NCBI GenBank assembly: GCA_020161615.1
Contig: JAIUPD010000006.1
Coordinates: 246,271-310,270, forward strand
Reading direction: 5' to 3'
Source: Pseudomonadota bacterium
GTDB lineage: Bacteria; Pseudomonadota; Alphaproteobacteria; Rhodobacterales; Rhodobacteraceae
Length of the DNA: 64,000 nt
Position numbers and translations under genes: made by a program. This document shows positions 4,455-63,081 of the stretch, in pieces (within the stretch, counting starts at the first letter, position 1; each line of letters starts with the position of its first letter). Under the pieces are notes generated by a model. The model made no database searches and was not told where the DNA came from. It worked only from the letters and a program-made list of their open reading frames with translations.

Positions 4455-5474
4455 ATGGCCGATATTGTCGGGGTCATCACGACAGCCCATGGGCCGCAAT
4501 TGCACACGACCCCCGATCAATGGCTCTTGCGGCTGGCATCCGACAAGGCACGCAAACACCCGTTCAGAGGGGGGCTCTATACCTTCGACGAGCTGGTCGA
4601 CCTGCGCCGCGATGAAGGCCTGGCCGAGAAATCCTCGATGGAAGCCATGGTGCGCAACCATCACCTGTGCAACGCCGCGACTGAACGGCTGGCCGAGGCC
4701 TATGAGGCGATGCAGGCCGATGTCGCGGTGATCTTCGGCAATGACCAGCACGAGATGTACGGCGACGATCTGATGCCGCCCTACATGGTCTATTACGGCG
4801 ACAAGATCCCGCATTTCCCGGCCAGCGAAGAGGGGCGCAACCTGCTTCCGCCGGGGATCAAGGAGGGCGAACACGGCCACGCGCCCGACGAATACCGGGA
4901 ATACGTCTGCCAGTCGGACCTGTCGCGGCACATCATCGCCGAACTGGTCGAGGCCGAATTCGACATCACCGTCTCGCCCAAGCTGCCCAGCCACAATCCC
5001 CGGACCAACGGCGTCAGCCATGCCTTCGGCCATATCTACCGGCAGGTGATGCGCGACCGGGTGATCCCGAATGTGCCGATCTACCAGAACACCTTTTTCC
5101 CACCGAACCAGCCGACTGCCCGCCGGTCGTTCAACTTCGGCAAGGCGGTGGGTCGCGCCATCCGCAGCTGGAAAAGCGATGCGCGAGTCGTCGTCTTCGG
5201 CTCGGGCGGGATGAGCCATTTTACCATCGACGAGGAATGGGACCACCGCTTCATGCGCGCCATGCGCGAGAAGGACCGCGAGTTCCTGCAGTCCATCCCG
5301 CTGGCCGAGCTGCAATCGGGCACCTCGGAGATGAAGAGCTGGATCTCGGCGGCGGGCGTGATGGACGAGCTGGAAACGGTGATGCACGAAATCGCCTATG
5401 TTCCCTGCTACCGCTCGGCGGCGGGGACCGGCACGGCGCAGGGCATGTATTGGTGGGAGGTGACGGGCGCATGA
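4455..5474 (+). CDS. LigB-like (class III) extradiol ring-cleavage dioxygenase
   Basis: A 339-aa non-heme Fe(II) dioxygenase of the LigB/protocatechuate 4,5-dioxygenase superfamily, which opens a dihydroxylated aromatic ring next to the hydroxyl pair. The N-terminal TTAHGPQLH places a histidine at residue 12, as in LigB; GNDQHEMYGDD (95-105) and GSGGMSHFTID are other family motifs. I start at ATG 4455 because GGAAGGAG precedes it; an in-frame ATG at 4416 has no such site. No LigA-like small subunit is visible in the window. It opens a tightly packed operon with three RraA-fold genes. Protocatechuate or gallate fits the downstream LigJ and LigK homologues and PobA, but the true substrate is not proven. 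Confidence 0.9.
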   Translation: MADIVGVITTAHGPQLHTTPDQWLLRLASDKARKHPFRGGLYTFDELVDLRRDEGLAEKSSMEAMVRNHHLCNAATERLAEAYEAMQADVAVIFGNDQHEMYGDDLMPPYMVYYGDKIPHFPASEEGRNLLPPGIKEGEHGHAPDEYREYVCQSDLSRHIIAELVEAEFDITVSPKLPSHNPRTNGVSHAFGHIYRQVMRDRVIPNVPIYQNTFFPPNQPTARRSFNFGKAVGRAIRSWKSDARVVVFGSGGMSHFTIDEEWDHRFMRAMREKDREFLQSIPLAELQSGTSEMKSWISAAGVMDELETVMHEIAYVPCYRSAAGTGTAQGMYWWEVTGA

Positions 5475-6130
5475 GCGACGTTCTCGACAGGCTCGGGCGG
5501 CTCGATAGCTGCGCGGTGTCGGATGCCAAGGATGCGCTGGGGCTGAGTGCGGCGGTCAGCGGTCTGGGTCGCGCCTCGGGCCAGGGGGTTCTGGCCGGGC
5601 GGGTCAAGACGGTGCAGTTGGCCAAAGGCAAGCCCGCGTCGGATGCGCCCAAGGTGCATCTCGGCGCCCGCGCCATCGCCGCCGCGACGGCAGAGACGGT
5701 GATTGTCGTCGCCCATCCCGGTATCGACGCGGGCGGCTGGGGCGGGGTGCTGTCCACCGGGGCGCAGCTGGCCGGGGTGCGGGGCGTCATCGTCGACGGG
5801 CCGACCCGCGACGTGGACGAGGCCCGCGGCCTGGGCTTTGCCATCTTCTCGCGCACCACGACCGCCCGCACCGCGCGCGGCCGGGTGCACGAGGTCTCGA
5901 CCGGCGAGCCGGTGGTGATCGGCGCCGAGCCGGTCGCGGACGGCGATTTCGTGATCGCCGACGGATCGGGCGTCGTCTTCATCCGTCAGGTGGATATCGA
6001 GCGGGTCCTCGCCACGGCCGAGGGCCTTGCCGCGCGCGAGGCGGCGATGGTCGCCGCGCTTCGCGCCGGTACGCCGATCACCGAGGTGATGGGCGCAAGC
6101 TACGAAACCATGCTGGAGGCCCGCTCGTGA
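5471..6130 (+). CDS. RraA-fold protein 1 (aldolase-like, metal-site Asp missing)
   Basis: A 219-aa RraA/demethylmenaquinone-methyltransferase-like fold protein, starting at an ATG that overlaps the dioxygenase stop (ATGA). Class II pyruvate aldolases of this fold carry a D-x20-R-D motif. Here the R-D is present (DGPTRDVDE) but the first Asp is replaced by Gly (GGWGGVLS at the position where its neighbours have WGD or FGD), so metal-dependent aldolase activity is doubtful. It may be a partner or a decarboxylase/tautomerase variant. It is followed by two paralogues with start codons overlapping or within 3 bp of the preceding stop. Family certain, function open. Confidence 0.85.
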   Translation: MSDVLDRLGRLDSCAVSDAKDALGLSAAVSGLGRASGQGVLAGRVKTVQLAKGKPASDAPKVHLGARAIAAATAETVIVVAHPGIDAGGWGGVLSTGAQLAGVRGVIVDGPTRDVDEARGLGFAIFSRTTTARTARGRVHEVSTGEPVVIGAEPVADGDFVIADGSGVVFIRQVDIERVLATAEGLAAREAAMVAALRAGTPITEVMGASYETMLEARS

Positions 6131-6789
6131 GCGATCCGAACGTTACCCGCGCCGCAAAGCTCGATTGCGCCACGCTGTCCGACGCGATGGACAAGCTGGG
6201 GATCGAGGGCGTCTGCCGGGGCATCAAGCCGCGCAACCCGGGTTTCCGCATGGTGGGGCGGGCTTATACGGTGCTTTATGGACCCGTCGACGCGGCCAAT
6301 CCGGGCACTGTCGGCGATTATGTCGATGACATGCAGCCCGGCCAGATCGCCGTGCTCGACAATGGCGGGCGCGAGGATTGCACGGTCTGGGGCGATATCC
6401 TGACCCAGTTCGCCCATACCCGCGGTCTGGCGGGTACGGTGATCGACGGCCCTTGCCGCGATGTCCATCTATGTCTCGAGCTGGGCTATCCGGTGTTTTC
6501 CCGCAGCTATTCGATGAAGACCGGCAAGGACCGCGTGCAGGTCGATGCCGTGCAGGTGCCGGTTACCATCGGCGATGCGCGCGTCTGCCCGGGCGACATT
6601 CTGGTGGGCGGCGCGGATGGCGTCGTGGTCCTGCCCCGCTCGCACGAGGACCGCATCCTTGACGAAGCCGAGCGGATCCAGGCCGCCGAGGAGGCGATCC
6701 GGGCCCTCGTGGCCCAAGGGCATTCGATCGCCCAGGCGCGTCAGCGGATGAACTATCACGCGCTGCAATCGCGCAGCGACAAGGGCTGA
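6127..6789 (+). CDS. RraA-fold protein 2 (aldolase-like, GTG start)
   Basis: A 220-aa RraA-fold protein starting with GTG inside the previous gene's last codons (GTGA overlap). It keeps the full D-x20-R-D spacing: Asp in VWGDILTQ and Arg-Asp in DGPCRDVH, so a divalent metal site of the HMG/CHA aldolase kind is plausible. It differs from the third paralogue across the substrate loop (GRAYTVLYGPVDAANPG), suggesting another 2-oxo-acid substrate. Candidate reactions are retro-aldol cleavage of a 4-hydroxy-2-oxo acid or oxaloacetate decarboxylation. Operon position between ring cleavage and central metabolism supports a lower-pathway job. Exact substrate unknown. Confidence 0.85.
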   Translation: MSDPNVTRAAKLDCATLSDAMDKLGIEGVCRGIKPRNPGFRMVGRAYTVLYGPVDAANPGTVGDYVDDMQPGQIAVLDNGGREDCTVWGDILTQFAHTRGLAGTVIDGPCRDVHLCLELGYPVFSRSYSMKTGKDRVQVDAVQVPVTIGDARVCPGDILVGGADGVVVLPRSHEDRILDEAERIQAAEEAIRALVAQGHSIAQARQRMNYHALQSRSDKG

Positions 6790-6792: not shown

Positions 6793-7464
6793 ATGACCTA
6801 CGCCATCCGCCAGATCGAGCGCGCCGATCCGGCCCTGATTGCCAGGCTGGGCGCATGCGGCGTCGCCACTTTGCACGAGGCGATGGGGCGCCGGGGCCTC
6901 CTGTCGTCGAAGATGCGGCCGATCCAGCCGGATCAGGCCATCGCGGGAAGCGCTGTCACCGTTTCGGCCGCCCCGGCGGACAATTGGATGATCCATGTCG
7001 CGCTGGAACTGGCCGAGCCCGGTGACGTGCTGGTGGTCGCGCCCTTCTCGCCCTCGGACGCGGGCTATTTCGGCGATCTGCTGGCCGAATCCGCGCAGGC
7101 GCGCGGCGTTGCCGGGCTGGTCATCGACGCCGGCGTGCGCGATCTGCGCGATCTGAAGCGGATGAATTTCCCGGTCTGGTCGACGGCGATCAGCGCCTGG
7201 GGCACGGTCAAGGAAACGCCGGGTTGGGTAAACATACCGGTGCAATGCGCGGGGGCGATCGCCCACCCGGGCGACGTGGTTGTCGCCGATGACGACGGCG
7301 TGGTGATCGTCCCCCGCGCCGAGGCGTCGATGGTGCTTGCCAAGGCACAGGCGCGCATCGCCGATGAAGGAGAAAAGCGCCGCGCCCTGCGCGAGGGGGT
7401 GCCGAGCATGGACCTTTACAACCTGCGGCCGGGCTTGGCGGCCAAGGGATTCACCTATCGCTGA
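6793..7464 (+). CDS. ligK: 4-carboxy-4-hydroxy-2-oxoadipate (CHA) aldolase / oxaloacetate decarboxylase, LigK-like
   Basis: A 223-aa RraA-fold aldolase closely resembling LigK/GalC/ProA enzymes, which split CHA to pyruvate and oxaloacetate at the end of the protocatechuate 4,5- and gallate pathways. Recognisable family stretches are [20 protein letters not shown], the D-x20-R-D motif (FGDLLAES to GVRDLRD), [19 protein letters not shown] and [18 protein letters not shown]. It lies 3 bp behind its paralogue. With the LigJ-like hydratase at 11403 it supplies the last two steps after 4-oxalomesaconate. The symbol is by family resemblance. Confidence 0.85.
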
Positions 7465-11402: not shown

Positions 11403-12425
11403 ATGATCATCGACTGCCATGCGCATATGGCCGTTCCGGGCAAGCTGCCCGCGTGGAAGGCAAGCCTTCTGTCCCATCGCGGGGCGCATGGGCGCAAGGC
11501 CCCCAGCTTTACCGCGCAGGAGATCGAGAGCGCCTTCACCCGCGTCGAAATGGCTGAATACGGACATATCGAATGCCTGGAACGGGCGGGCGTTGACCAT
11601 CAATTGCTGTCCCCGCGTCCCTTCCAGCTGATGCATTCCGAGGAACCCAAGAAGCTGGTGCATTGGTATGTCGAGGCCGCCAACGACCTGATCGCCCAGG
11701 AATGCGCGCACTATCCCGGCAAGTTCACCGGCATCGCCGGGCTGCCGCAGGCCGGTGACAGCCCGATCGAGCACTGTCTGCCCGAGCTGGAGCGCGCGGT
11801 GAAGGAGCTGGGCTTTCGCGGCTGCCTGCTGAATCCCGACCCCTTCGAGAACGATGGTCGCAAGGCGCCGCCGATGGGCGACCGCTACTGGTATCCGCTC
11901 TATGAAAAGCTCTGCGAACTCGATGTCGTGGCGCATATTCATTCGGCCAGTTCGCGGCTGGTGGACCGCGAGCCCTATTCGCTGCATTTCATCAACGAAG
12001 AGACCACCGCGGTCTATGGCCTGTGCAAATCGACCGTTCTCGATGACTTCCCGGATCTGAAGATCCTGGTCAGCCACGGCGGCGGCGCGATCCCCTATCA
12101 GGTCGGCCGCTTCGATGCGACCAGCGTGCCGCGCAAGGGCATGGATGTGTCCGGCAGCCGGTTCCTGACGCGGCTGCGCAAACTCTATTTCGACACCGTG
12201 CTCTATTCGCGCGAGGCGATCGAACTGCTGGTCAAGGTCGTCGGCCCCTCGCGCTGCCTTTACGGCGCAGAGATGCCCGGCGTGGGGTCGTCGATCAATC
12301 CCGATACCGGGCAGGCCTTCGACGACATCATCCCCTTCATTCGCGCGCTGGATTTCATCAGCGACGCTGACAAGGCCGACATCCTAGGCGGTAACGCGCA
12401 GCGGGTCTTCGGCCTGGCGCTTTGA
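11403..12425 (+). CDS. ligJ: 4-oxalomesaconate hydratase, LigJ-like amidohydrolase
   Basis: A 340-aa amidohydrolase-fold protein that resembles LigJ along its whole length. LigJ adds water to 4-oxalomesaconate to give 4-carboxy-4-hydroxy-2-oxoadipate. Matching blocks are MIIDCHAHM at the N terminus (HxH metal pair), CLPELERAVKELGF, GCLLNPDPF, DRYWYPLYEKLCEL, the HIHSAS histidine, LVSHGGGAIPYQ, and YGAEMPGVGSSINPDTG. The length matches LigJ (about 340 aa). It is preceded by AGGAAACGCG 67 bp after the hydroxylase and followed closely by pobA. With the LigK-like aldolase it completes OMA to pyruvate plus oxaloacetate. Symbol by resemblance. Confidence 0.85.
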   Translation: MIIDCHAHMAVPGKLPAWKASLLSHRGAHGRKAPSFTAQEIESAFTRVEMAEYGHIECLERAGVDHQLLSPRPFQLMHSEEPKKLVHWYVEAANDLIAQECAHYPGKFTGIAGLPQAGDSPIEHCLPELERAVKELGFRGCLLNPDPFENDGRKAPPMGDRYWYPLYEKLCELDVVAHIHSASSRLVDREPYSLHFINEETTAVYGLCKSTVLDDFPDLKILVSHGGGAIPYQVGRFDATSVPRKGMDVSGSRFLTRLRKLYFDTVLYSREAIELLVKVVGPSRCLYGAEMPGVGSSINPDTGQAFDDIIPFIRALDFISDADKADILGGNAQRVFGLAL

Positions 12426-28687: not shown

Positions 28688-29881
28688 TCAGCCTGCGGGC
28701 GCCTCCTCGAACCAATTGCCTGCCGGGCTGTCGATCCATTCCTCGCCCGCCGTGAAGGCCACGCCGACCGGATCCCGGCCGTCCTGCACCGCCTTGACCT
28801 GACGCAGCATGAAGCGACGCAGCATGACGATCCCCTGATCGGTGGTGCCCAGATGCTCGTGATTGTGCCAGGTGATGTCACCCTGACCTTTCTGCGCCTC
28901 GTAATCGCCGGGGAAGATGCGGTGTTCCTCGTCGCTCAGCTCTTCCCAGAGCTTGCCATCCTGACGCGACCGCACATTGGCCAGCTCGCCCTCGGCGGTG
29001 ACGCGGCCGATTGTGTAGATCTGGAAATGCGTGTCGTCGATCGGCAGCACGAAGCCGATGGATTGACAACGCCCCGCCGTCAGCTTGGGCGAGGGAACGA
29101 TCCGCAGGGTCGGAATCTGTACCTCGGTGATCCGGCGCAGCCGCTTGCCGCCCTCGAGCGCCCGGTACGAGGTCGTGCGCACGCCCAAGGCCTCGTTGGT
29201 GAAGTCGCAGACCGGCATGGTCGCCATCTCGGCCACGAATTGCGTGCCCGAGAAGGTCGAATGCAGCACCACCACATGAAACGGGTCCATGACGTTTTCC
29301 CAGTGCTGGAACCAGTTGAAATCGACAATCCTGGGACCGCCGCCGCCAATGGACCTATCGTTGACTTCAAGGAATTCGCCCGCGTCCAGGTCTTCCAGCA
29401 GCCGGAAGCGCGGCAGAAGGGGCCGCTTCGCCGCCGGTCCCATATAGACCCAGATCAGCCCGTAGCGCTCTTCTGCCGGATACCAGGGCTGACGCACTTT
29501 CTCGCGCGACCCTTCGCCCAGCCGGGGCTCGCAGGGTTGTTCGAGGCAATTGCCCTGCGCGTCGAAGAGCCACCCGTGATAGCAACAGCGGATGCCCCGT
29601 TCCTCGACCTTGCCATAATAGAGCGAGGTCCCGCGATGGGCGCAGCGCGGGTGCACGATGCCCACCTTGCCCGACCCGTCGCGGAACAGGATCAGATCCT
29701 CGCCCAGGGCGCGGATCTGCCGGGGGGTTGCCGTCGCGTCCGCGGCCACGCCGACCGGATGCCAGTAGCGGCGCAGCAATTCCCCCATCGGCGTACCCTT
29801 TGCCACCGCTGTCAGGCTGGGGTTCGGCGCGCCGGGCCCCAGGTCATAGGCCGTTTCGGCACCGGGCATGGATCCTTCCAT
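28688..29881 (-). CDS. Rieske non-heme iron oxygenase, alpha (terminal) subunit
   Basis: A 397-aa ring-hydroxylating or demethylating oxygenase, closest in style to phthalate 4,5-dioxygenase and chlorobenzoate dioxygenase (start MGELLRRYWHPVGV). The Rieske cluster is CAHRGTSLYYG and CCYHGWLFD; the mononuclear iron site is NVMDPFHVVVLHSTF (Asp-His-His) at about residue 200, preceded by DFNWFQHWE. Both metal centres are intact. A reductase gene lies 48 bp upstream on the same strand, making a two-component system. Substrate undetermined; ring dihydroxylation or O-demethylation of a benzoate would fit the window. Confidence 0.92.
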   Translation of the reverse strand: MEGSMPGAETAYDLGPGAPNPSLTAVAKGTPMGELLRRYWHPVGVAADATATPRQIRALGEDLILFRDGSGKVGIVHPRCAHRGTSLYYGKVEERGIRCCYHGWLFDAQGNCLEQPCEPRLGEGSREKVRQPWYPAEERYGLIWVYMGPAAKRPLLPRFRLLEDLDAGEFLEVNDRSIGGGGPRIVDFNWFQHWENVMDPFHVVVLHSTFSGTQFVAEMATMPVCDFTNEALGVRTTSYRALEGGKRLRRITEVQIPTLRIVPSPKLTAGRCQSIGFVLPIDDTHFQIYTIGRVTAEGELANVRSRQDGKLWEELSDEEHRIFPGDYEAQKGQGDITWHNHEHLGTTDQGIVMLRRFMLRQVKAVQDGRDPVGVAFTAGEEWIDSPAGNWFEEAPAG

Positions 29882-29929: not shown

Positions 29930-30865
29930 CTACAGGTCCAGAACCAGATGCGGCGTCTTCGCGCGTGAGCAGCAGATCAGCATCCGCCCTTCGCCGCGCT
30001 CCTCGCTGGTCAGGATGAGGTCGCGGTGATCCGGCTCTCCGTCCAACACCTGACATTCGCAGGTGCCGCAGACCCCGACCCGGCAGGAATGCGCAGCGTC
30101 GACGCCAGCGGCGAGCAGGGCATCGAGGATCGTCTCCTGCGGGCCCACCACGATGGTGCGTCCCGACCGCGCCAGATCGACCGCGACCTCGCCCTCGCCC
30201 GCCGTGGGCCTGGGCTGCTCAAAACGCTCAAGATGCACATGCCCCGGGTCCCGATCCGCCGTCGCCGCCAGGAAGGCGTCCAGCATGGGGCCGGGGCCGC
30301 AGCAATAGAGGTGGGTGTCGGGCGAAACCCCGGCCAGCAGCGCGGGAAGATCCGGGACCCCGTCCTCGTCATCCGCGCGCACGCGGGCGCCCAGTTGCGA
30401 GAGCCGACCGGCAAAGGGCAGCGCCTTGCGCGAGCGGACACAGGCGATCATCGACCAAGGGCGCGTGCCCTGCGACAGGGTTTCGGCCATGGCCAGCAGG
30501 GGCGTCATCCCGATACCGCCCGCGATCAGCAGCACCGGCCCGTCGCCGGGGTCCAGAGCAAAGGCGTTGCGCGGGGCCGAGATCCGCAGAACGTCACCGG
30601 GCCGCAGGGTTTCATGAACTGCCGCCGAGCCGCCGCGGCTGCGCGGTTCGCGCAGGATGCCCAGGACATAGGCATCACTCGAACTACCCGCGGTCAGCGA
30701 ATACTGGCGGACCATGCCGCCCGGCAGATGCAGATCCACATGCGCGCCGGGCTCGGGTCGCGGCAGGCGACCGGCGAGGGGGCTGAGGGTCAGGCTCAGA
30801 ACGCCGGGGCATTCCCAGCGCATGAGGGTCAGTCGGGTGTCGATGGTGCCGCTCTTCTTGCTCAT
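29930..30865 (-). CDS. Phthalate-dioxygenase-type reductase (FMN/2Fe-2S, VanB-like)
   Basis: A 311-aa electron-transfer protein for the oxygenase downstream. Domain order is flavin (RQYSLTAG, residues 53-60), nicotinamide (LLIAGGIGMTPLLAM, about 110-125) and a C-terminal plant-type [2Fe-2S] domain (CRVGVCGTCECQV with a fourth Cys in LICCSRA). This order is that of phthalate dioxygenase reductase and vanillate demethylase VanB. Transcription probably starts from the promoter at 30915-30943. It passes electrons from NAD(P)H to the Rieske protein. Confidence 0.92.
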   Translation of the reverse strand: MSKKSGTIDTRLTLMRWECPGVLSLTLSPLAGRLPRPEPGAHVDLHLPGGMVRQYSLTAGSSSDAYVLGILREPRSRGGSAAVHETLRPGDVLRISAPRNAFALDPGDGPVLLIAGGIGMTPLLAMAETLSQGTRPWSMIACVRSRKALPFAGRLSQLGARVRADDEDGVPDLPALLAGVSPDTHLYCCGPGPMLDAFLAATADRDPGHVHLERFEQPRPTAGEGEVAVDLARSGRTIVVGPQETILDALLAAGVDAAHSCRVGVCGTCECQVLDGEPDHRDLILTSEERGEGRMLICCSRAKTPHLVLDL

Positions 30866-46607: not shown

Positions 46608-46668
46608 GAAGGTTCCTTTCCGGGGCGCGGCCGCGTCCCATTCTTCGCATCACAAATTGGGTCGAGGC

Positions 46669-55326: not shown

Positions 55327-56916
55327 TCACCCGCAGAGCGACGCCCAATAGACGATCTTCGCGTCGCAGGTCCGGCGTACATGGTGATAGAGCCGTTCGA
55401 GCCGCGCCGGATCCGCCGCATGTCCCGAGACAGCGTACAGCCGGTGCCAGGCGGCAAGAAACAGCAACGTCCCCGTCAATTGCATGAAAGCATGCGCCGA
55501 TTCCCGCGGCCGGTCGCTGCCAAGCAAGGCCGCGCGGGCGCCGTTCCAGACCTCCAGCGCCGCGGCAAGGGCTGCACCGTCCGGCGATTGCGCGGCAAGC
55601 CCTGCGACGAAGACCGCGAAGGCCTCGGCCAGTTTCCCCTCTTTCAGTCGCAGCAGCCGGGTTGTCAGCGTGCTGGCATGAATGCCATTCGCCCCTTCGA
55701 AAATCGCCGCGATGCGCACGTCGCGCAGGTTCTGCTCGGCCTGGTATTCCTGCAGATAGCCGTAGCCGCCCAGAACCTGAATCGCGGCATTCGAGGCCTC
55801 GATAGCGCCCTCGGTGCAGAAGACCTTGCAGACCGGCGTGAGGAAATCGACCAGATCGGCGCGTCCGGGATCGGTCAGCGCCACCAAAAGAAGGTGGCTC
55901 ATCGCGCGCATGCCCAGGGTCAGCGCATCCATCTCGCGCAGCATCCGCGCCACATCGGGGTGCCGGTCGATGGTCACACCCCCCTGCTGGCGCTCGGCCG
56001 CATAGCGCGTGGCGATATCCGTTGCGCGCGCCGCATGGGCAACCCCCAGAAGCGAGGTGCCGATGCGGGCCGAGTTCATCATCGTGAACATGCCCAGCAA
56101 ACCCTTGCCGGGCTCGCCGATCAGCTCGGCCCGGGCGCCGTCGAAACGCAATTGGCAGGTGGGCGAGCCGTGCAGGCCCATTTTCTCTTCAAGCCGGGTG
56201 ACGGAGATCGCGTTGCGGTTCCCCGCATCGTCCTGCGAGGGACAGAGGAACAGGCTCAACCCTTTCAGGCCCTCGGACATCTCGCCCGTGCGCGCCAGCA
56301 CCAGATGCAGGATGCCCTCGCTCAGATCGTGATCGCCGCCCGAGATGAAGATCTTCTCGCCACGGATCGCCCAGCCGTCACCCTCGGCCACCGCCTTTGT
56401 CCGCACGCCGGACAGATCCGACCCCGCGCCCGGCTCGGACAGACACATGGTCGCCGTCCAGGCACCCGAGGCCAGGCGAGGCAGGTAGCGGGCCTGTTGC
56501 TCGGCCGAGCCCGAGACCAGCAGCGTCTGCGCCGCACCCTTGATCAGGCCCGTCGCCATGGCGAAGCCCGGACAGGCGCCGGTGGTGATCTCGCCCAACA
56601 GGGCCGAGGCCATGGCGCCGGGCATACCCTGGCCCCCGAACGCCTCGGGCAGGGTCAGCCCGCACCAGCCCTGGTCGGCGTAGCGGCGGAAGGCTTGCGG
56701 GTAGCCATCGGGCGTGCGGACGCGGCCATTCTGCAACCGGCAACCCTGTCGGTCGCCGGGCGCGTTCAGGGGCGCGATCTCGCTTTCGGCGAATTGGGCG
56801 AAATGCCTGGCGATCTGAGCCGCCAGATCGCTGTCCCAATCGGGGATGGTCCGTGCCTGGGCGACGTGTTCCAGGCTGAACAGGATGTCGTCCAGCGGGG
56901 CCGTGAAGGGGGTCAT
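55327..56916 (-). CDS. Acyl-CoA dehydrogenase (large, DmdC-like)
   Basis: A 529-aa acyl-CoA dehydrogenase of the extended type (as 3-methylmercaptopropionyl-CoA dehydrogenase and related phenylpropanoyl enzymes), about 130 residues longer than usual with a C-terminal helical domain. Motifs are TMCLSEPGAGSDLSG, FISGGDHDLSE, NAAIQVLGGYGYLQEYQAEQ and the catalytic EGANGIHASTL region. It is the last gene of the minus-strand operon with feruloyl-CoA synthase. It could oxidise a dihydro-phenylpropanoyl-CoA to the enoyl-CoA that the hydratase uses. Confidence 0.91.
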   Translation of the reverse strand: MTPFTAPLDDILFSLEHVAQARTIPDWDSDLAAQIARHFAQFAESEIAPLNAPGDRQGCRLQNGRVRTPDGYPQAFRRYADQGWCGLTLPEAFGGQGMPGAMASALLGEITTGACPGFAMATGLIKGAAQTLLVSGSAEQQARYLPRLASGAWTATMCLSEPGAGSDLSGVRTKAVAEGDGWAIRGEKIFISGGDHDLSEGILHLVLARTGEMSEGLKGLSLFLCPSQDDAGNRNAISVTRLEEKMGLHGSPTCQLRFDGARAELIGEPGKGLLGMFTMMNSARIGTSLLGVAHAARATDIATRYAAERQQGGVTIDRHPDVARMLREMDALTLGMRAMSHLLLVALTDPGRADLVDFLTPVCKVFCTEGAIEASNAAIQVLGGYGYLQEYQAEQNLRDVRIAAIFEGANGIHASTLTTRLLRLKEGKLAEAFAVFVAGLAAQSPDGAALAAALEVWNGARAALLGSDRPRESAHAFMQLTGTLLFLAAWHRLYAVSGHAADPARLERLYHHVRRTCDAKIVYWASLCG

Positions 56917-56935: not shown

Positions 56936-57730
56936 TCAGGCGGGGCGGTCGGTCTTGTCGAAGAAGGTCTTGATCCGCTCGGCCGAGTTCGACTCGGCCG
57001 CCGAGGCCGAAAGCGTCGCCATCAGCGATTCCGTGAACAGCCCCTGATGCGGCGGCATGGCCGAGATGTGCGAAACGCCATTGGTAATGGCGAAGTTCGA
57101 GACCGGCGAATTGGCGGCGATCTTCTGGGCCAGGTCCCGCGCCAGCGCCATCCCTTCGCCCTCGCCGACCAGGTAATGCGACAGCGCCAGCCTTGCGCCC
57201 TCGTCCGCGTCGAGCTTGCGGCCGGTCAGCATCATCTCGGTCACCCGGGTCTTGCCGATGATCTGCGGCACCCGGACCGAGGCGCCGCCGCCGACGAAGA
57301 TCCCGCGTTGCCCCTCGGGCAATTGGTAGAAGGTCGAGGGTTCGGCGATGCGGACATGGGTCGCCGCGGCCAGTTCCAGCCCGCCGCCGATGACGCCGCC
57401 CTTGAGCACGCTGATCACCGGCGCCTCGCAATATTCGATCAGATCGAACACCCGGTGCCAGCCGCGCGAATGGCGCACACCGGCCAGCGAGTCCGCCTGT
57501 TCCGTCGTCTTTGCCCGTGCCGCCATGCGTTCGATCAGATCGAGGCCGGCGCAGAAATGCTCGCCCTCGCCCTGCAGGATCACACAGCGGACACCGGCCG
57601 GAAGCTGGCCGAAATAGGCGCCCAGCTCGGCGATGAGCTGATCGTTGATGGCATTGCGCTTGGCGGGCCGGTTCAGCGTGACGAGGCCGATGGCGCCGTC
57701 CTGGTCGATCTGGACGAGTGGGTCGCGCAT
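56936..57730 (-). CDS. Enoyl-CoA hydratase/isomerase family protein (crotonase fold)
   Basis: A 264-aa crotonase-fold enzyme. The oxyanion hole is in FCAGLDL and KGGVIGGGLELAAATHVRI, followed by LPEGQRGIFVGGGASVRVP. A catalytic Glu is visible as LPEGQRG. The order next to feruloyl-CoA synthase is the one found in phenylpropanoid clusters, so hydration of a hydroxycinnamoyl-CoA is the best guess. It is not clear from sequence whether it stops at hydration (beta-oxidation) or goes on to retro-aldol cleavage (hydratase-lyase). Confidence 0.88.
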   Translation of the reverse strand: MRDPLVQIDQDGAIGLVTLNRPAKRNAINDQLIAELGAYFGQLPAGVRCVILQGEGEHFCAGLDLIERMAARAKTTEQADSLAGVRHSRGWHRVFDLIEYCEAPVISVLKGGVIGGGLELAAATHVRIAEPSTFYQLPEGQRGIFVGGGASVRVPQIIGKTRVTEMMLTGRKLDADEGARLALSHYLVGEGEGMALARDLAQKIAANSPVSNFAITNGVSHISAMPPHQGLFTESLMATLSASAAESNSAERIKTFFDKTDRPA

Positions 57731-57736: not shown

Positions 57737-59599
57737 TCAGCCTTCCTTCTGGTGCTGGGGAACGATGATGACGGCGGCCGGGGGCGGGTCGGCATAAAGC
57801 GCCTCGACGCTCGCGGCGCGCTCCGCCAGGGCCCGACGCTGGTTCACATAGCCCTTGTCGGTGATCTCGCCGGTGCCAAGCGAGGGCGGCTCCTCCAGCA
57901 GGATGGCGCGGGCAATGGCCATGCTGGAGGCCGGATTGCGGGCCTTGTGCCGGGCAAGGCGCCGGGCGATCTCGGCCTTCAGGGCAGGATCGGCGGCAAG
58001 CTGGGCGGGGGTTGCATCGGGCCTCCCCAGGAAGGCGCGGCAGGGCTGGACGGCGGGCCAGGCCAGGGCCGCGACATAGCCCCGGTCGGCGCCCGCCAGC
58101 AGCACGTCCGACACCAGCGGCGCCAGCGCGTCGATGACCTGGGTGCGCAACGTGCCGACCCGGACGAAGGTGCCCGACATCAGCTTGAATTCCTCGGACA
58201 CGCGGCCGGCAAAGACCATCCCCTCGGCGGGATCGGCGGGATCGACGAATTCCGCCGCATCGCCCATGCGCACGAAGCCGTCCTCGTCGAACAGCGCGCG
58301 GGTCTCGTCTGGATTGTGCAGATAGCCGGGCGTCACGCCGATATGCTTGACCCGGACCTCATAGCGGCCATCCGCCAGCGGAACCAGCTTGGCCGTGACG
58401 CCCGGATGGGGCAGGCCGATCAGGCCCGTGCGTTCCACCGGCCAGAACACATAGAAGGCCGAGGGCGAGGTTTCGGTCGCGCCATAACCGCTGACGAAGA
58501 CGATCCGGTGGCCGGTGTGGCGGACCGACAGGGCCTGAAAGCGCTCGTAGATATCGTCGGGCAAGCGCGCCCCGGCATAGGACAGCTTGTTGATCTGCCG
58601 GAAGAACCGCTCGGCCAGCGCCTCGTCCTTTTCCAGCGCGGCGACCAGCAGCGCGTAGCCGATCGGCACATTGCGGTATTCGGTCGGCATGATCTCGGCG
58701 ATGTTGCGCAGGCTGATATCGAAGAGCCCCGGCACGGGTCGCCCTTCGTCGATATAGAGCGAGCCGCGGCGGAACAGCGTGGCGTTGAAGATGTAGTTGC
58801 CGGCCATGACATGGCTCCAGGGCAGCCATTCCATCGCGATGTCGTGCTGACTTTCGTCGCGCAAAACCAGTTGCTCGGTCATCGCCAGATTGGCGCAGAG
58901 CATGCGCTGGGTGGTGATCACCGCCTTCGGAACCCCGGTCGAGCCCGAGGTGAAGAGGTATTTGGCGACGGTGTCATGGTCGATCCGGGCAACGGATTGC
59001 TCGACCGCCTGCGTCGGTTTGGTGGCCAAGGCCTTTCCCCAGAGGGTCGCACCGCTGCCGGTCACGGCCAAGACGGCGGCCCCGGGCTGGGCGATACCCC
59101 TCAAGGCAGAGGCAAAGGCGTCGGCATCCTGCGCGAACAACACGGCGGGCTTGAGCAGATCCGCCATCGACCGCAGCTTGCTGTGGTCGGCCGTCCGCAG
59201 CGAATAGGCCGAGCTGATCGGCGTCACCGGCATCCGTGCCTGCATCGCCGCCAGGATCAGCACACCGGCCTCGACGGAATTGTCGCTCAGGATCATCACC
59301 GGGGCGCCCGGGCGATCCAGATCCAGCAGCCATTGCGTCAGCGCATCGACCTGCGCGCGGGCCTCGCCATAGCTCAGTTCATGCCACGCGCCCGCGGCGC
59401 CGCGTCGCTGCCCCAACCAGGTACGCTCGGGATGGCGCGCGGCGGCATCGCGCAGCAGTTGCGGGATATGCGCGGGCAAGGGCGCCAGCGGCACGTTGTT
59501 GTGCAGCGTGATCGTCCCGTCCGGCGCGGTCTCGACGGAAATGTCACGCTCGATGAAGCGGACGGGCCGGAAGTCCGTAGTGTCCTGTTCTGCGGTCAT
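57737..59599 (-). CDS. Feruloyl-CoA synthase (AMP-forming)
   Basis: A 620-aa adenylate-forming ligase resembling feruloyl-CoA synthases of bacterial phenylpropanoid clusters. The start RPVRFIERDISVETAPDGTI and the HIPQLLRDAAARHPERTWLG region are typical of that group, as are LFTSGSTGVPKAVITTQRML (P-loop), SGYGATETSPSAF and the long C terminus. It activates ferulate, p-coumarate or similar acids to CoA thioesters. It starts 25 bp after the stop of the DUF35-dehydrogenase fusion and ends 6 bp before the hydratase, clearly one operon. Confidence 0.88.
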   Translation of the reverse strand: MTAEQDTTDFRPVRFIERDISVETAPDGTITLHNNVPLAPLPAHIPQLLRDAAARHPERTWLGQRRGAAGAWHELSYGEARAQVDALTQWLLDLDRPGAPVMILSDNSVEAGVLILAAMQARMPVTPISSAYSLRTADHSKLRSMADLLKPAVLFAQDADAFASALRGIAQPGAAVLAVTGSGATLWGKALATKPTQAVEQSVARIDHDTVAKYLFTSGSTGVPKAVITTQRMLCANLAMTEQLVLRDESQHDIAMEWLPWSHVMAGNYIFNATLFRRGSLYIDEGRPVPGLFDISLRNIAEIMPTEYRNVPIGYALLVAALEKDEALAERFFRQINKLSYAGARLPDDIYERFQALSVRHTGHRIVFVSGYGATETSPSAFYVFWPVERTGLIGLPHPGVTAKLVPLADGRYEVRVKHIGVTPGYLHNPDETRALFDEDGFVRMGDAAEFVDPADPAEGMVFAGRVSEEFKLMSGTFVRVGTLRTQVIDALAPLVSDVLLAGADRGYVAALAWPAVQPCRAFLGRPDATPAQLAADPALKAEIARRLARHKARNPASSMAIARAILLEEPPSLGTGEITDKGYVNQRRALAERAASVEALYADPPPAAVIIVPQHQKEG

Positions 59600-59623: not shown

Positions 59624-61288
59624 TCAGGCGGCGTCGGGCGACGGCGCAAATAGCGCCCGCCCCTCGGCGACCATGGATTGCAGCAGCGCGGCGGGGCGGA
59701 AAGCCTCGCCCTCCTGCGCCTGAAGCGCGGTGAGCCGGTCCAGAATGGCGCCAAGCCCCTTTTGCTGTGCGTAATACATCGGGCCGCCGCGCCAGGCGGG
59801 CCAGCCATAGCCCCGCAGCCAGACGGTATCGACATCTTCAGGCCGATCCGCGATGCCTTCCTCGAGCAGTTTGAAGCCTTCGTTGAGCATCGGCAGGATC
59901 AGCCGGTCGTGCATCTCGGCGGGCGGAATCGGGCGGCGCGTGACGCCTTCGGCGGCCGACCACTCGCGGATCAGCGCCTCGACCTCGGGATCGGGGATCG
60001 GTTTGCGGCTGCCCGGTTCATAGCGGTAATAGCCCTTGCCGGACTTCAGCCCCGTGCGTCCGGCCTTGAAAAGCCGGTCGATCAGCCAATCGGTGCGCCC
60101 GGTGTCCTGCCGCTGGCGATAGGCCAGCTCGATCCCGCCCGCCATGTCCTGCAGGGTGAAGGTGCCCATCGGCAGGCCAAAGCCGGTCTGGAACGCATCC
60201 ACCTCTTGCGGCAGCGCCCCGGCGAGCAGCAATTGCGCCGCATGATGCTCGCGCGCGATCATCAGCCGGTTTCCGACAAAGCCGAAGGCATTGCCTACCG
60301 TCACCGAGGTTTTCCGCAAACGGTCCCCCAGTGCCCGCGCGGCAGCGAGGGTCGCGGGCTCGGTCGCTGTGCCCCGAACGATCTCCAGCAGCTTCATGAT
60401 ATGCGCCGGGCTGAAGAAATGCAGACCCACCACCGCGCCAGGCCTTGTGGTGGCCCGGGCAATCGCGTCGATGTCGAGGGTCGAGGTATTGGTCCCCAGC
60501 ACCGCGCCCGGCCGGGCGAAGCGATCCGCCTGTGCCATGACCTCCTGCTTGAGGGCCATGGCCTCGTAGACCGCCTCGATCACCACATCGGCCCGGGAAA
60601 TCGCGGCCATGTCGGTGGTGCAGACCAGCGCGTCAAGGCAGGCGGCGGCTGCGGGACGGGCTTTGCCCTTGTCGATGGCCTGGGCGACATTGGCCGCGAT
60701 AACCGACCGCGCGCGCTCCAGCGCCTCGTGCGCGCGGTCGACCAGCACCGCCGAAAGCCCGGCGATCAGACAGGCCGAGACGAGGCCTTGGCCCATGGTC
60801 CCGCCCCCGATCACCGCGACCTGCGCCAAGGCGGGTGCCTCGCCCGGTGGGACGGCGTCGGCCTCAGCAATGACACGGGCGGCGTAAGCCTCGGCCCGCA
60901 GCGAGGCCGGGGCGACGAAGGCGGGCACCGGGGCACCCTTCGGGCCCTTGGTGAAGCGCAGCGTCATCGGCTGGCCGATCTCCAGAGCCTCGAAATCCGA
61001 CTGCACGATGATCGTGGGCATGGTCGGCCCCTCGGCCAGCGTGACCATCGCGTAATGGGTGGCCGGGGGCAGCATCGGCGACGTGGTATAGGAATAGAGC
61101 GTCGCGGCGCCGCTGGCTTTCCGCCATTCCGTCCCGCGATGACCGCAGAGCGGGCAATGCGGGCGGGGATAGACATGCGCCTCGCCGCAGGATTGGCAGG
61201 CGCGCAGCAACAGGATGCCCGCTTCGGCCGCCGCCTGGTACTCGGCCAGCAGCGCGGCCTCTCGGGGTTGGGTGTCGTGTCCGCTCAT
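59624..61288 (-). CDS. DUF35 - 3-hydroxyacyl-CoA dehydrogenase fusion
   Basis: A 554-aa protein with an unusual layout. Residues about 1-140 are a DUF35 zinc-ribbon/OB-fold unit (CQSCGEAHVYPRPHCPLCG, four cysteines) and residues 150-550 a 3-hydroxyacyl-CoA dehydrogenase: Rossmann AQVAVIGGGTMGQGLV, catalytic His in GLHFFSPAHIMKLLEIV, NAFGFVGNRLM, and a FadB/J-like second C-terminal part (RGYGWPAWRGGPMYY). Thus the crotonase domain of a FadJ is replaced by DUF35. It overlaps the thiolase homologue by one base. DUF35 units dock on thiolase-fold enzymes, so this is a probable bridge between the two reactions. Confidence 0.88.
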   Translation of the reverse strand: MSGHDTQPREAALLAEYQAAAEAGILLLRACQSCGEAHVYPRPHCPLCGHRGTEWRKASGAATLYSYTTSPMLPPATHYAMVTLAEGPTMPTIIVQSDFEALEIGQPMTLRFTKGPKGAPVPAFVAPASLRAEAYAARVIAEADAVPPGEAPALAQVAVIGGGTMGQGLVSACLIAGLSAVLVDRAHEALERARSVIAANVAQAIDKGKARPAAAACLDALVCTTDMAAISRADVVIEAVYEAMALKQEVMAQADRFARPGAVLGTNTSTLDIDAIARATTRPGAVVGLHFFSPAHIMKLLEIVRGTATEPATLAAARALGDRLRKTSVTVGNAFGFVGNRLMIAREHHAAQLLLAGALPQEVDAFQTGFGLPMGTFTLQDMAGGIELAYRQRQDTGRTDWLIDRLFKAGRTGLKSGKGYYRYEPGSRKPIPDPEVEALIREWSAAEGVTRRPIPPAEMHDRLILPMLNEGFKLLEEGIADRPEDVDTVWLRGYGWPAWRGGPMYYAQQKGLGAILDRLTALQAQEGEAFRPAALLQSMVAEGRALFAPSPDAA

Positions 61289-62451
61289 CACATCGCCTCG
61301 AGAATGACGGTTGCCGCCATGTGCTGCCCGGCGAGCGAGCCGCCGGTGCCATGCGCCAGCACCAGATCGTGACGCGGCACCTGCACGGCGGGATGCGCCT
61401 CGCCCCGGCACTGGCGCACGGCTTCCAGGATCTTGGTCATGCCGCCCTTGTTGCCGGGGTGGTTGTTGCACAGGCCGCCGCCATCGGTGTTGACCGGCAG
61501 GCGCCCGACCCCCGCGATCAGGTTGCCGTCGGCCACGAAACGCCCGCCCTGCCCTTTCGCGCAGAAGCCCAGATCCTCCAGTTCGACGATCACGGTGATG
61601 GTGAAGCTGTCGTAGATCGAGGCATAGCGGATGTCCTCCGGGGTCAGCCCCGCCTCGGCAAAGGCGATGGCGCCCGAGCGCACACCGGCGGAGCGCGTCA
61701 GATCGGCCCGCCCCCCGGCCGCATGCTGCATGGCTTCCCCAGTGCCGCGGATGCGGACCGGCGGACGCTTCAATTGCCGCGCGATTTCGGCGCGCACGAC
61801 GACCAGCGCGCCACCGCCATCGGTCAGGACGCAGCAATCGTCACGGTGCAGCGGATCGGCGACCATGGGCGAGGCCAGCACATCCTCGACCGTCAGCACC
61901 TTGCGCAACCTGGCCTGCGGATTGTGCTGGGCATGGTGCGAGGCGGCGACCTTGACCCAGGCAAGCTGCTCGGACGTGGTGCCGAAGTCGTGCATATGGC
62001 GGCGGGCGACCATGGCGTAGCCCAGCATCGGGAACGGTGGCACCGGGGGCTGGAAGTGCCGCTCGGGGATCAGGCTGAAATCGACCCCGGCCAGCCGCGG
62101 CCCGGCCTTGCCCGCCACTGGCCGATCCGCCAGCGTGATCAGCGCCACGTCGCATTTGCCCGCCGCGATGGCCTGCGCCGCGTGGCTGAGATGGACCATG
62201 TAGGACGAACCGCCGGTTTCAGTGGTGTCCATGTGCCGCAGGCGGGTCAGCCCGAGGTATTCAGCCATCGAAAAGCCGCCGACGCCTGGCGCCTCGGCAC
62301 CGCAGAAGAAGCCGTCGACATCGGACAGGCCAAGCCCCGCGTCAGCCAGCGCGCCGAAGGCAACATCGGCGTGCAGCTCGGCCGTCGAGATCCCTTCGGC
62401 GTTGCGCGTGGGATGCTCGTAAATCCCGGCGATATAGGCTGTGTCGGCCAT
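61288..62451 (-). CDS. Thiolase-superfamily protein, nucleophilic cysteine absent
   Basis: A 387-aa protein of the SCP2-thiolase type, first gene of the minus operon. At the nucleophile loop it reads MDTTETGGSSYMVHLSHAA, with Gly/Ser instead of Cys, and the C-terminal Cys motif reads LVLAHGTGG. The His in LCNNHPGNKGG is present. The region ASIYDSFTITVIVELEDLGF is characteristic of non-classical thiolases that work with DUF35 partners, some of which are aldolases. Start ATG 62451 follows GGAGGGG; a longer frame to 62484 is less likely. Thiolysis or retro-aldol action cannot be decided here. Confidence 0.86.
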   Translation of the reverse strand: MADTAYIAGIYEHPTRNAEGISTAELHADVAFGALADAGLGLSDVDGFFCGAEAPGVGGFSMAEYLGLTRLRHMDTTETGGSSYMVHLSHAAQAIAAGKCDVALITLADRPVAGKAGPRLAGVDFSLIPERHFQPPVPPFPMLGYAMVARRHMHDFGTTSEQLAWVKVAASHHAQHNPQARLRKVLTVEDVLASPMVADPLHRDDCCVLTDGGGALVVVRAEIARQLKRPPVRIRGTGEAMQHAAGGRADLTRSAGVRSGAIAFAEAGLTPEDIRYASIYDSFTITVIVELEDLGFCAKGQGGRFVADGNLIAGVGRLPVNTDGGGLCNNHPGNKGGMTKILEAVRQCRGEAHPAVQVPRHDLVLAHGTGGSLAGQHMAATVILEAM

Positions 62452-62640: not shown

Positions 62641-63081
62641 GTGTCGCAGAACCCGCCGCGCGAGCTGCCACAGGTTTTCTTCCTGCTGTTCCGGCTGCAC
62701 CAGCAGATCCGCGATCAGCTGGCGCTGACGCTCAGCGCCAGCCAATTGACGATGGCCCAATACACCACGCTGAGCCTGCTGCGCGGCGAGAAGCTGGTGA
62801 CCGTCGCCGATCTGGCCCGCACCCTGCCGATCAGCGCGCAATCGCTGGGCGAAACGATCAAGATCCTGGACGAGAAGGGCTTCGTGCAGAAGCGCCGTCT
62901 GCCGACTGACAGCAAGCGCAAGTATATCGCGCTGACCGAAGCCGGGCGCGCCACCTTGTCGGAAACCGACGCCTTGGTCGTCGAGGCCGAGCAGGCCTTT
63001 CTCTCGACGCTCGATCCGCAGCAGGCGGCGCTCTTCGTCGCCAGCCTGCGCAACCTGCACAAGGCCCAGCAGGGCGGTTAA
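62641..63081 (+). CDS. MarR family transcriptional regulator (GTG start)
   Basis: A 146-aa MarR regulator starting at GTG behind GAGGAAATG. Helix-turn-helix part: TVADLARTLPISAQSLGETIKIL, with wing KRRLPTDSKRKYIALTEAG, and the usual helical dimerisation ends. Divergent from the feruloyl-CoA synthase operon and separated from it by the palindrome at 62507-62529. In many phenylpropanoid clusters a MarR protein represses the genes and is released by hydroxycinnamoyl-CoA, and this gene fits that role by position. Confidence 0.9.
   Translation: MSQNPPRELPQVFFLLFRLHQQIRDQLALTLSASQLTMAQYTTLSLLRGEKLVTVADLARTLPISAQSLGETIKILDEKGFVQKRRLPTDSKRKYIALTEAGRATLSETDALVVEAEQAFLSTLDPQQAALFVASLRNLHKAQQGG

Follow-up and report, generated by a model that had tools for sequence, protein, structure and literature searches.

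A DUF35–dehydrogenase fusion and its thiolase-fold neighbor travel with genes for 5,5'-biphenyl lignin-dimer breakdown

Introduction

In the window, the 64,000-nucleotide stretch of rhodobacteral DNA analyzed here, a single gene joins a DUF35 unit to a FadB-type 3-hydroxyacyl-CoA dehydrogenase (HAD) and follows directly on a thiolase-fold gene whose product has glycine in place of the nucleophilic cysteine. This CoA module travels with genes for the breakdown of 5,5'-biphenyl lignin dimers, LigY foremost, and the linkage suggests a still undescribed bacterial use of cross-linked plant phenolics. We propose that the fusion tethers the dehydrogenase to a retro-Claisen enzyme devoid of that cysteine, which would shorten the C3 side chains of a 5,5'-linked dimer; taken as a whole, the proposal could equally prove right or wrong.

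In the cell walls of grasses, 5,5'-diferulate serves as a cross-link. The 5-5 linkage counts among the carbon–carbon bonds that survive lignin depolymerization, and the bacterial route described for it has as its model substrate dehydrodivanillate (DDVA), whose side chains are short from the outset (PMC12997858; papers with such numbers are cited here from excerpts). The terms 'side chain' and 'beta-oxidation' are absent from the excerpt of that review, in which the 5-5 model dimer is dehydrodivanillate itself. If the module shortens side chains, it would supply the missing upstream part of this route. A literature search of titles and abstract openings, with subscription papers mostly outside it, found neither a bacterial 5,5'-diferulate pathway nor a DUF35–HAD fusion; the excerpt of PMC11323797 deals with beta-5 dimers and lacks the terms 'thiolase', 'DUF35' and 'hydroxyacyl', and that of PMC5863372 deals with vanillin enzymes.

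Architecture of the fusion and its thiolase-fold partner

The fusion gene (59624..61288, minus strand, ATG at 61288) encodes 554 residues with no internal stop; a plus-strand reading of the same interval was rejected, as it has a stop inside its translation. Residues 19–51 match zf-ChsH2 (30.2 bits, Pfam gathering cut-off 23.2), residues 55–112 OB_ChsH2_C (37.0 against 27.1), residues 156–333 3HCDH_N (177.6 against 22) and residues 336–423 together with a second stretch 3HCDH (86.8 against 22.1). A first-pass annotation had described DUF35 and a FadB/J-like dehydrogenase without crotonase in one frame, and with all domains above gathering on the minus strand this description stands. Cys31, Cys34, Cys45 and Cys48 of the DUF35 unit (residues 19–112; 60953..61234, minus), a putative docking domain with a C4 zinc ribbon, are invariant in all 14 aligned fusion copies and follow the C-x2-C-x10-C-x2-C zinc-ligand pattern of DUF35 (PMC12329534). 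The HAD part (residues 156–547; 59648..60823, minus) is active-looking and FadB-type, with the catalytic-type His290, Glu302 and Asn340 and the Rossmann glycines G161, G163 and G166 likewise invariant (14/14). H290, E302 and N340 are assigned as catalytic by the numbering of HAD enzymes. The best solved match of this part, 6ium, is aligned over 266–690 of 701, the FadB-type region behind the crotonase half; no crotonase domain appeared in the Pfam/NCBIfam scan, and the fusion scores below the FadB and FadJ family cut-offs of NCBIfam (224.9 and 230.4 bits versus 870 and 869). Between Phe124 at the end of DUF35 and the NAD motif, the copies have a linker of 37–42 residues.

The neighboring gene (61288..62451, minus), correctly said to overlap the fusion by one base (its TGA and the fusion's ATG form TGATG at 61288), encodes a thiolase-fold protein of 387 residues that matches the PRK08142 model of NCBIfam at 631.7 bits (cut-off 462) and carries YDSF and HPG motifs. 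The thiolase nucleophile position, located by alignment to 7yvy, is Gly81, and glycine occupies it in 33/33 family rows. The label 'cysteine-less' given to this protein therefore holds for the nucleophile position and fails for the whole protein, where Cys328 (GGGLC) is invariant in 33/33 rows and other cysteines are invariant too. The HP of the thiolase histidine motif is conserved in the family. The tyrosine of the YDxF motif is conserved in the thiolases of all 14 fused and all 19 unfused loci.

Distribution of the fusion

Thirteen further full-length fusion copies were found in alpha- and betaproteobacteria, and because they are independent, a sequencing or frameshift artefact is excluded. 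In all 14 loci the same thiolase lies immediately upstream, the 13 others being 71–76% identical to that of the window; this constancy agrees with the proposed DUF35–thiolase pairing and with a fusion that links the dehydrogenase to it. A 174-residue fragment at a contig edge (L023) is excluded from all 13/13 and 14/14 counts. The thiolases of fused loci form one clade in the tree (support 100/100).

At the 19 less related thiolase loci a separate DUF35 gene of about 130 codons (118–136 residues) is present throughout (19/19); they derive from 24 thiolase places in 398 genomes of the window's phylum (E<=1e-100), 20 of which were retrieved, less the window's own locus. In a second locus set DUF35 is separate in 28/30, and the two fused cases come from the L015 and L020 genomes; two members of this set, L084 and L090, coincide with L028 and L029. 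That DUF35 proteins are usually separate subunits thus holds within this thiolase family; as a general statement it is qualified by Shy, an already known fusion of DUF35 with a MaoC hydratase. The fusion itself is rare in the genomes and plasmids sampled, and with DUF35 matched and the frame intact in 13 other copies, the architecture is real as well as uncommon. Its own genome is the one carrier among 292 of its order (E<=1e-100), the sole other match having no DUF35, and none of 15 plasmid records with a match at E<=1e-80 covers 80% of it.

The CoA side-chain module

Behind the fusion lie three further genes on the minus strand: an acyl-CoA synthetase of the PRK12582 family (57737..59599; 798.9 bits, cut-off 777) of putative substrate specificity, which we take to be feruloyl-CoA-synthetase-like; a crotonase/enoyl-CoA hydratase of the PRK08150 family (56936..57730; 337.7 bits, cut-off 232); and an acyl-CoA dehydrogenase identified by Pfam (55327..56916), predicted to desaturate 3-arylpropanoyl-CoA. 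A divergent MarR-family regulator (62641..63081, plus; Pfam) completes the group, and MarR-type regulators 30–40% similar to it occur in 12 of the 13 other fusion loci. The p-hydroxycinnamoyl-CoA hydratase-lyase, an aldehyde-forming crotonase, has lost one hydratase glutamate. Such a function is not supported for the window's crotonase: Glu119 and Glu139 are both invariant in 11/11 aligned rows, and no hydratase-lyase of this type is named among the best 60 of its 97 PDB matches, which are headed by 3hin (putative 3-hydroxybutyryl-CoA dehydratase) and 4izb (enoyl-CoA hydratase/isomerase family).

The same functions recur elsewhere. CoA ligase and hydratase are present in 13/14 fusion loci, the window counted, in keeping with the CoA-dependent, phenylpropanoid-type setting envisaged by the annotation; the examined segment of L022 has no close copy of either. 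The acyl-CoA dehydrogenase is 34–39% similar to the one immediately behind the fusion in 10 of the 13 other loci. An acyl-CoA dehydrogenase that acts on saturated phenylpropanoyl-CoA (phloretoyl-CoA, Pcd) is reported from a Pseudomonas fcs/ech cluster (PMC12642758).

Linkage to biaryl genes

The biaryl genes of the window are led by a predicted LigY-like C–C hydrolase of a biphenyl meta-cleavage product (11403..12425, plus), which matches solved LigY (6e6i/5vn5) with E 9e-124 and a score of 416 bits, in an alignment that spans 338 of 340 residues. An HxH at positions 6/8 and a late glutamate align with solved LigY and presumably form the metal site; assignment of this amidohydrolase as a 4-oxalomesaconate hydratase was rejected (196 bits versus 416 for LigY). 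Its genome has ten PF04909 places, one of them this gene; 7 of the other 9 were scanned and gave no LigW model (NCBIfam). A PobA-like gene adjoins LigY in the window.

Also on the plus strand are a class III extradiol dioxygenase of the LigB family (4416..5474; Pfam), LigZ-like by class and place only, which is 64–66% similar to one close to LigY in L046–L048, and three RraA-like genes. The first, an RraA-like aldolase (5465..6121; Pfam), is 48–55% similar to RraA genes of linked clusters, the second, also an RraA-like aldolase (6127..6789; Pfam), has PRK08245 as its best NCBIfam model with the LigK model under cut-off, and the third (6793..7464) matches RraA-like genes of other loci at 39–43% in tblastn. 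A Rieske oxygenase (28691..29881, minus; Pfam) is 44% similar to its counterpart in fusion locus L014, and its reductase partner (Fer2; 29933..30865, minus; Pfam) 38–42% to the reductase in L014–L017 and L020; an O-demethylase role for the oxygenase is a guess from class and position only.

A LigY-like gene (E<=1e-75) occurs in 11/14 fusion genomes versus 1/397 other genomes of the phylum (2/398 with the window's own), in a Fisher test that takes no account of relatedness among fusion genomes that include four Paraburkholderia and one Cupriavidus. Two of the 11 (G294, G300) are only 43–48% identical; neither G296 nor G304 yielded a LigY match, and G301 gave a distant match only. In the window LigY and fusion are 47 kb apart. 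The sole other LigY-positive phylum genome has LigY 7.6 kb from a thiolase/DUF35 pair, and in the family of G297 (249 genomes) 12/27 LigY places begin 7.0–8.5 kb from the thiolase start, with 14/26 LigY genomes there lacking a thiolase match at E<=1e-150. The per-place chance behind the linkage statistics, 0.007, is a rough figure of which these distances are independent. A clear LigXa-type gene is confined to 6/14 fusion loci (L015–L017, L019–L021). L015 is compact and complete, with LigY, a LigZ-type gene, three RraA genes, LigXa, hydratase and ligase divergent from thiolase, fusion, acyl-CoA dehydrogenase and reductase.

Eleven genomes have clusters of a second type, in which these functions are all present but HAD and DUF35 are encoded apart. 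Free HAD and hydratase adjoin LigX-type reductase, LigXa-like and LigY-like genes in 11/11 checked genomes, DUF35 is separate in 11/11, and the 7 genomes examined in full also have CoA ligase, three RraA-like genes and one of LigZ type. In the same setting, the components of the fusion thus also occur unfused; the tree of fused and free HADs has long branches and does not resolve an origin of the fused HAD from the free HAD of this cluster type.

Proposed function and competing explanations

From what the sequences show, namely the domains, motifs, conservation, single fused clade and gene linkage, we infer docking, step order, cleavage chemistry and substrate as follows. By analogy with Ltp2–ChsH2 and Sal–Shy, DUF35 would bind the thiolase-fold protein of the preceding gene and hold the HAD beside it. 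The CoA ligase would activate an aryl-C3 acid, the acyl-CoA dehydrogenase would desaturate the chain when saturated, and the crotonase would hydrate the unsaturated acyl-CoA. The tethered HAD would then oxidize the 3-hydroxyacyl-CoA to the 3-keto form, which the partner may cleave to acetyl-CoA and an aromatic acid, a retro-Claisen reaction with no cysteine acyl-enzyme. Tyr280 (YDSF) and His331/Cys328 are candidate acid–base groups, and water as nucleophile is a guess. The usual substrate would be a phenylpropanoid dimer with a 5,5' link, either 5,5'-diferulate or the corresponding dihydro compound, yielding dehydrodivanillate for LigX/LigZ/LigY/RraA-type enzymes. More tentatively, there may be a dedicated bacterial 5,5'-diferulate route, in which both C3 chains are shortened by a trifunctional-enzyme-like assembly, evolved independently of FadAB, of DUF35–HAD and a cysteine-less retro-Claisen hydrolase of thiolase fold that passes its product to LigXZY.

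The annotation had a hydroxycinnamate as substrate. The same complex might indeed serve monomers (ferulate, p-coumarate or dihydro forms) and give vanillate or 4-hydroxybenzoate, the biaryl genes being mere neighbors in a general aromatic island. Four loci (L012, L014, L019, L022) lack a nearby LigY and three of these genomes lack a close one anywhere, a PobA-like gene stands next to LigY in the window, and Agrobacterium fabrum is known to process monomers by the same succession of steps, from ligase through hydratase and dehydrogenase to keto-cleavage (PMC7797058). However, LigY is scarce in the phylum sample yet frequent in fusion genomes, and two differently built clusters each unite CoA side-chain genes with LigXa/LigY/LigZ-type genes. 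Because biaryl-type genes travel with the module, a monomer is probably not the main substrate, and we regard this explanation as possible but doubtful.

Regarding the cleavage step, the partner might instead be a Sal/Ltp2-like retro-aldolase that converts the 3-hydroxyacyl-CoA to aryl aldehyde and acetyl-CoA, with the HAD serving another step or the reverse direction. The missing nucleophile and the conserved YDxF tyrosine, which is also compatible with an aldolase, would fit, and Sal and Ltp2 are the second and third closest solved structures. Tyr280 is retained relative to both, but serine replaces the catalytic-acid cysteine of Sal (YDCY) and the histidine of Ltp2 (YDHF), and Ltp2 Tyr344 aligns with His331, so that the pairs Tyr302/Cys304 of Sal and Tyr294/Tyr344 of Ltp2 are both incomplete. 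No aldehyde dehydrogenase was found in 13/13 full-length fusion loci as examined (tblastn, one query) or in the 7 fully examined second-type clusters. Moreover, in an assay of Shy–Sal a dehydrogenase diverted the beta-hydroxy substrate from the aldolase, and a Sal-type aldolase cannot use the beta-keto form (PMC12329534). Since a tethered dehydrogenase would take the aldolase's substrate, an Ltp2-type aldolase, which the annotation had mentioned, fits poorly and is rather unlikely; the tether suggests a beta-keto substrate for the partner. Ordinary thiolysis by CoA through another cysteine, such as Cys328, to an aroyl-CoA, comparable to BbsAB, would accord with the invariance of Cys328, the retained HP and the place of BbsB among the five closest solved chains. 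It is improbable given a score of 139.5 against a cut-off of 750 for the BbsB model NF053628 (NCBIfam) and a nucleophile site without cysteine in 33/33 rows, though 9/19 unfused relatives have one a single place further on. That DUF35 is a relic or mere folding aid, the HAD acting freely on various 3-hydroxyacyl-CoAs, is very unlikely in view of the invariant zinc cysteines and adjacent thiolase (each 14/14). For a retro-Claisen reaction in this family, whether driven by water, as we prefer, or by CoA, the catalytic residues remain candidates from sequence comparison.

If the dedicated route is true, the DUF35-bound thiolase fold without the cysteine would add a third type of chemistry to those of the thiolases and the Ltp2/Sal aldolases. 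The proposal would further give a testable function to the widespread but loosely named pair annotated 'thiolase domain-containing protein' and 'OB-fold domain-containing protein', and present DUF35 as an exchangeable tether that carries a hydratase in Shy and a dehydrogenase here.

Comparison with known systems

BbsA is the DUF35 protein of BbsAB, as a separate subunit. Benzoylsuccinyl-CoA thiolase BbsAB (PDB 7pxp) likewise combines DUF35 with a thiolase fold and acts on an aryl beta-keto acyl-CoA (entry name, PMC12329534), whereas the window's partner lies far below the BbsB family cut-off. Shy–Sal of Comamonas testosteroni, from bile acid side-chain degradation (PDB 9myr; PMC11321319, PMC12329534), also has a thiolase fold without the usual nucleophile cysteine and a DUF35 flexibly linked, through 26 residues in Shy, to the enzyme that acts one step earlier. 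There DUF35 is C-terminal and joined to a MaoC hydratase, while here it is N-terminal and joined to a dehydrogenase; Sal has Tyr302/Cys304 in a steroid context, the partner YDSF in an aromatic one. Although the annotation expected channelling, Shy–Sal, the closest tested complex and tethered through DUF35, gave none that was significant (PMC12329534).

Ltp2–ChsH2 (PDB 6ok1) similarly places a C4 zinc-ribbon DUF35 on a cysteine-less thiolase fold, but with a YDHF/Tyr344 pair that is not conserved here and with a hydratase instead of a dehydrogenase as partner. The A. fabrum hydroxycinnamate pathway (Atu1415–1417, Atu1421; PMC7797058) is alike in step order, from CoA ligase through hydratase and hydroxyacyl-CoA dehydrogenase to keto-cleavage releasing the free aromatic acid. 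The FadB/FadA complex holds a dehydrogenase together with a thiolase-fold enzyme, as we propose for the FadB-type HAD of the window, which in contrast has DUF35 in place of the crotonase half and a thiolase without nucleophile cysteine. As for the DDVA pathway LigX–LigZ–LigY of SYK-6, LigY-like, LigB-type and RraA-like genes adjoin the module, and at some loci a Rieske oxygenase with a LigXa_C domain accompanies them.

A dehydrogenase fused to DUF35

The fusion gene runs on the minus strand from 61288 to 59624 and encodes 554 amino acids with no internal stops. Pfam profiles, all above gathering, place zf-ChsH2 at residues 19-51, OB_ChsH2_C at 55-112, 3HCDH_N at 156-333 and the best stretch of 3HCDH at 336-423, bearing out the first-pass annotation, which had read DUF35 joined in one frame to a 3-hydroxyacyl-CoA dehydrogenase (HAD). 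As it also held, the HAD part is FadB/J-like without a crotonase half, an absence that rules out FadB/J identity itself, and the gene overlaps that of a thiolase-fold protein (61288-62451, minus strand) by the one base common to the thiolase stop and the fusion start in TGATG.

A scan of genome contigs located 14 loci in other genomes, one with a 174-residue end piece and 13 with full-length fusions (47-54% identical), a lower bound since the scan depends on exact short peptides. These 13, from Hoeflea, Pararhodobacter, Pseudorhodoferax, Pinisolibacter, Paraburkholderia (four), Bradyrhizobium, Cupriavidus, Tropicibacter and two class-level MAGs, show that the fusion is no sequence error. All 14 fusion copies keep the zinc ligands, the Rossmann glycines and the HAD triad unchanged. 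A survey of 292 genomes from the order to which the window belongs finds the fusion in its own genome alone (E<=1e-100), the single further match having no DUF35. The thiolase occurs in 24 of 398 phylum genomes (E<=1e-100), and a fused-type score is reached in the window's own genome only (766 versus at most 633 bits, the own protein being itself a row of the profile). The fusion is real, conserved and rare.

In a tree, a 100/100 branch separates the 14 fusion-adjacent thiolases from 19 relatives. Each relative adjoins a separate DUF35 protein of 118-136 amino acids, which has its own stop and ends about where the fused ones continue through a 37-42 residue linker into the HAD. In a further sample of 30 loci, drawn from 249 genomes in the family of G297, DUF35 is separate in 28 and fused in two (the genomes of loci L015 and L020); for this thiolase family the expectation that DUF35 is usually a separate subunit thus holds. 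All three annotated plasmid records viewed carry the thiolase and a separate OB-fold protein, adjacent in two, and two have an SDR or FabG dehydrogenase nearby. On the Phaeobacter inhibens plasmid pP66_d (L121), typed mobilizable, an unfused thiolase/OB-fold pair and an AMP-binding protein lie beside pobA and pca genes.

The thiolase-fold partner and the CoA module

By sequence the partner is a PRK08142 member (631.7 bits; cut-off 462) of putative function. Its nearest solved chains are, in order, 4u4e, Sal (9myr), Ltp2 (6ok1), 7yvy and BbsB (7pxp). Gly81 aligns with the nucleophile Cys of 7yvy, which upholds the claim of a Cys-less homologue for the nucleophile position and sets the protein apart from a true thiolase. 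Judged by the catalytic pairs of Sal and Ltp2 it does not class as an aldolase of their type, nor by score as BbsB. Every family row, 14 fused and 19 unfused, has Tyr-Asp-Ser-Phe (280-283), Cys328 and His331-Pro. Residue 82, one past the usual nucleophile position, is Ser in all 14 fused-type proteins and Cys in nine of the 19 unfused relatives (L025-L043), and these nine may differ in function from the Ser82 proteins.

Counted over 14 loci, the window among them, the thiolase lies directly upstream of the fusion in all, CoA ligase and hydratase are present in 13, MarR in 13 and an acyl-CoA dehydrogenase in 11. A glutamate rule separates hydratases from aldehyde-forming hydratase-lyases. Both catalytic-type Glu are kept in 11 of 11 aligned rows (11 of the 13 close hydratases), and the top matches among solved structures carry the names dehydratase or hydratase/isomerase family, which makes the aldehyde-forming reaction less likely. 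In Pseudomonas, an fcs/ech cluster is reported to include an acyl-CoA dehydrogenase acting on a saturated phenylpropanoyl-CoA (PMC12642758). At L010:7676-8653, a cupin directly before the thiolase partially matches a gentisate 1,2-dioxygenase model (180.6 bits; cut-off 442.1).

A biaryl neighbourhood

The biaryl setting of the module was missed by the first-pass annotation. A conserved Amidohydro_2 neighbour is LigY-like; the window's copy (11403-12425) scores 416 bits with solved LigY, far above the 196 bits of the rejected 4-oxalomesaconate hydratase. Right after it, 12482-15169 encodes a PobA-like monooxygenase (PRK08243, 467.7 bits) and an aldehyde dehydrogenase. LigB-family dioxygenase and RraA-like genes lie beside the LigY-like gene. 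The RraA family includes 4-hydroxy-4-methyl-2-oxoglutarate aldolase. Loci L015-L017 and L020-L021 add a Rieske oxygenase and reductase; these oxygenases match that of L015, which has LigXa_C as its C-terminal domain, at 80-100%. With a 67% similar gene at L019, LigXa-type genes reach six of 14 fusion loci. L014 and the window have a Rieske oxygenase of another type. For L011 and L013 the only similar oxygenase (33%) lies at a greater distance (L047, L048). Published dehydrodivanillate pathways include the 4-hydroxy-4-methyl-2-oxoglutarate aldolase step, according to a table in PMC12673573.

LigY lies within the fusion locus or window in nine of 14 cases; in a tenth (L018) it shares a contig of 129,500 bases with the fusion. 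At E<=1e-75 it occurs in 11 of 14 fusion genomes (a count leaving out G305, source of the end piece at L023). In nine of the 11 a copy is 57-100% identical, in the other two (G294, G300) 43-48%. The phylum sample, by comparison, has it in two of 398 genomes. One of those two is the window's own; the other, G623, has an unfused thiolase/DUF35 pair at 7.6 kb from LigY. Among the 249 genomes, LigY occurs in 26 (27 places, E<=1e-75), the thiolase in 42 (51 places, E<=1e-150) and both in 12. Of the 27 LigY places, 12 (spread over 11 genomes) begin at a distance of 7.0-8.5 kb from where a thiolase gene starts, two of the fused type (G297 on contig C363, and G302) and ten unfused. No thiolase match at E<=1e-150 was found in 14 of the 26 LigY genomes; LigY alone therefore exists, which counts against a fixed link and is as expected for strains starting at dehydrodivanillate. 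Clusters of LigY, LigZ-type, Rieske and RraA genes at L110, L108 and L109, with no thiolase within the 19.5 kb examined, probably represent such strains.

Ten unfused thiolase/LigY clusters in the family of G297, a genome with both types, and that of G623 make a second type in 11 genomes. Full gene content, from seven of these, comprises what we take from sequence starts to be an ADP-forming-type CoA ligase and a CaiB-type protein, two acyl-CoA dehydrogenases, thiolase, separate DUF35, LigZ-type, three RraA-like, LigXa-like and LigY-like genes. DUF35 is separate in all 11, and beside a LigX-type reductase all 11 also encode a hydratase and a FadB-type HAD that stands free of DUF35 (the HAD of G895 is interrupted by a contig end). 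The parts fused in the window thus occur apart in the same setting, a classic sign that they may work jointly.

Proposed mechanism

Ltp2-ChsH2 and Sal-Shy are established cases in which DUF35 docks on a Cys-less thiolase fold, and Shy shows that a DUF35 unit can hold the enzyme acting one step earlier (PMC12329534, PMC11321319). What is known is the DUF35-tethered thiolase-fold complex, which the fusion system would resemble in its working; new is the variant with a dehydrogenase fused to DUF35. The first-pass proposal that tethering channels hydroxycinnamate CoA esters to the thiolase homologue loses ground by analogy, as Shy-Sal is reported to show no significant channelling (PMC12329534).

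The same work reports that a dehydrogenase oxidising the hydroxy substrate puts it beyond an aldolase's reach. Given this conflict, the fused HAD, together with the HAD present in all 11 second-type clusters, argues by analogy for a beta-keto substrate of the thiolase-fold partner. One tblastn query found no aldehyde dehydrogenase in the 13 full-length fusion loci; the window has three, more than 15 kb from the fusion, one within the LigY/PobA group. In Agrobacterium fabrum, ligase, hydratase and dehydrogenase precede keto-cleavage to the free acid, as described in PMC7797058. Together these points favour a putative Cys-less retro-Claisen cleavage with a hypothetical nucleophile: the fused HAD would oxidise a hydroxyacyl-CoA to its beta-keto form, which the thiolase-fold partner would cleave. 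The module would have a putative role, specific and testable, in biaryl phenylpropanoid catabolism. Fusion and partner bear a loose likeness to FadAB. A second CoA oxidation cluster in the window (43281-48006) encodes a FadB/J-type protein with its crotonase part and an acyl-CoA dehydrogenase; it also has a remote thiolase-like ORF that matches the window's own fusion-adjacent thiolase at 27%.
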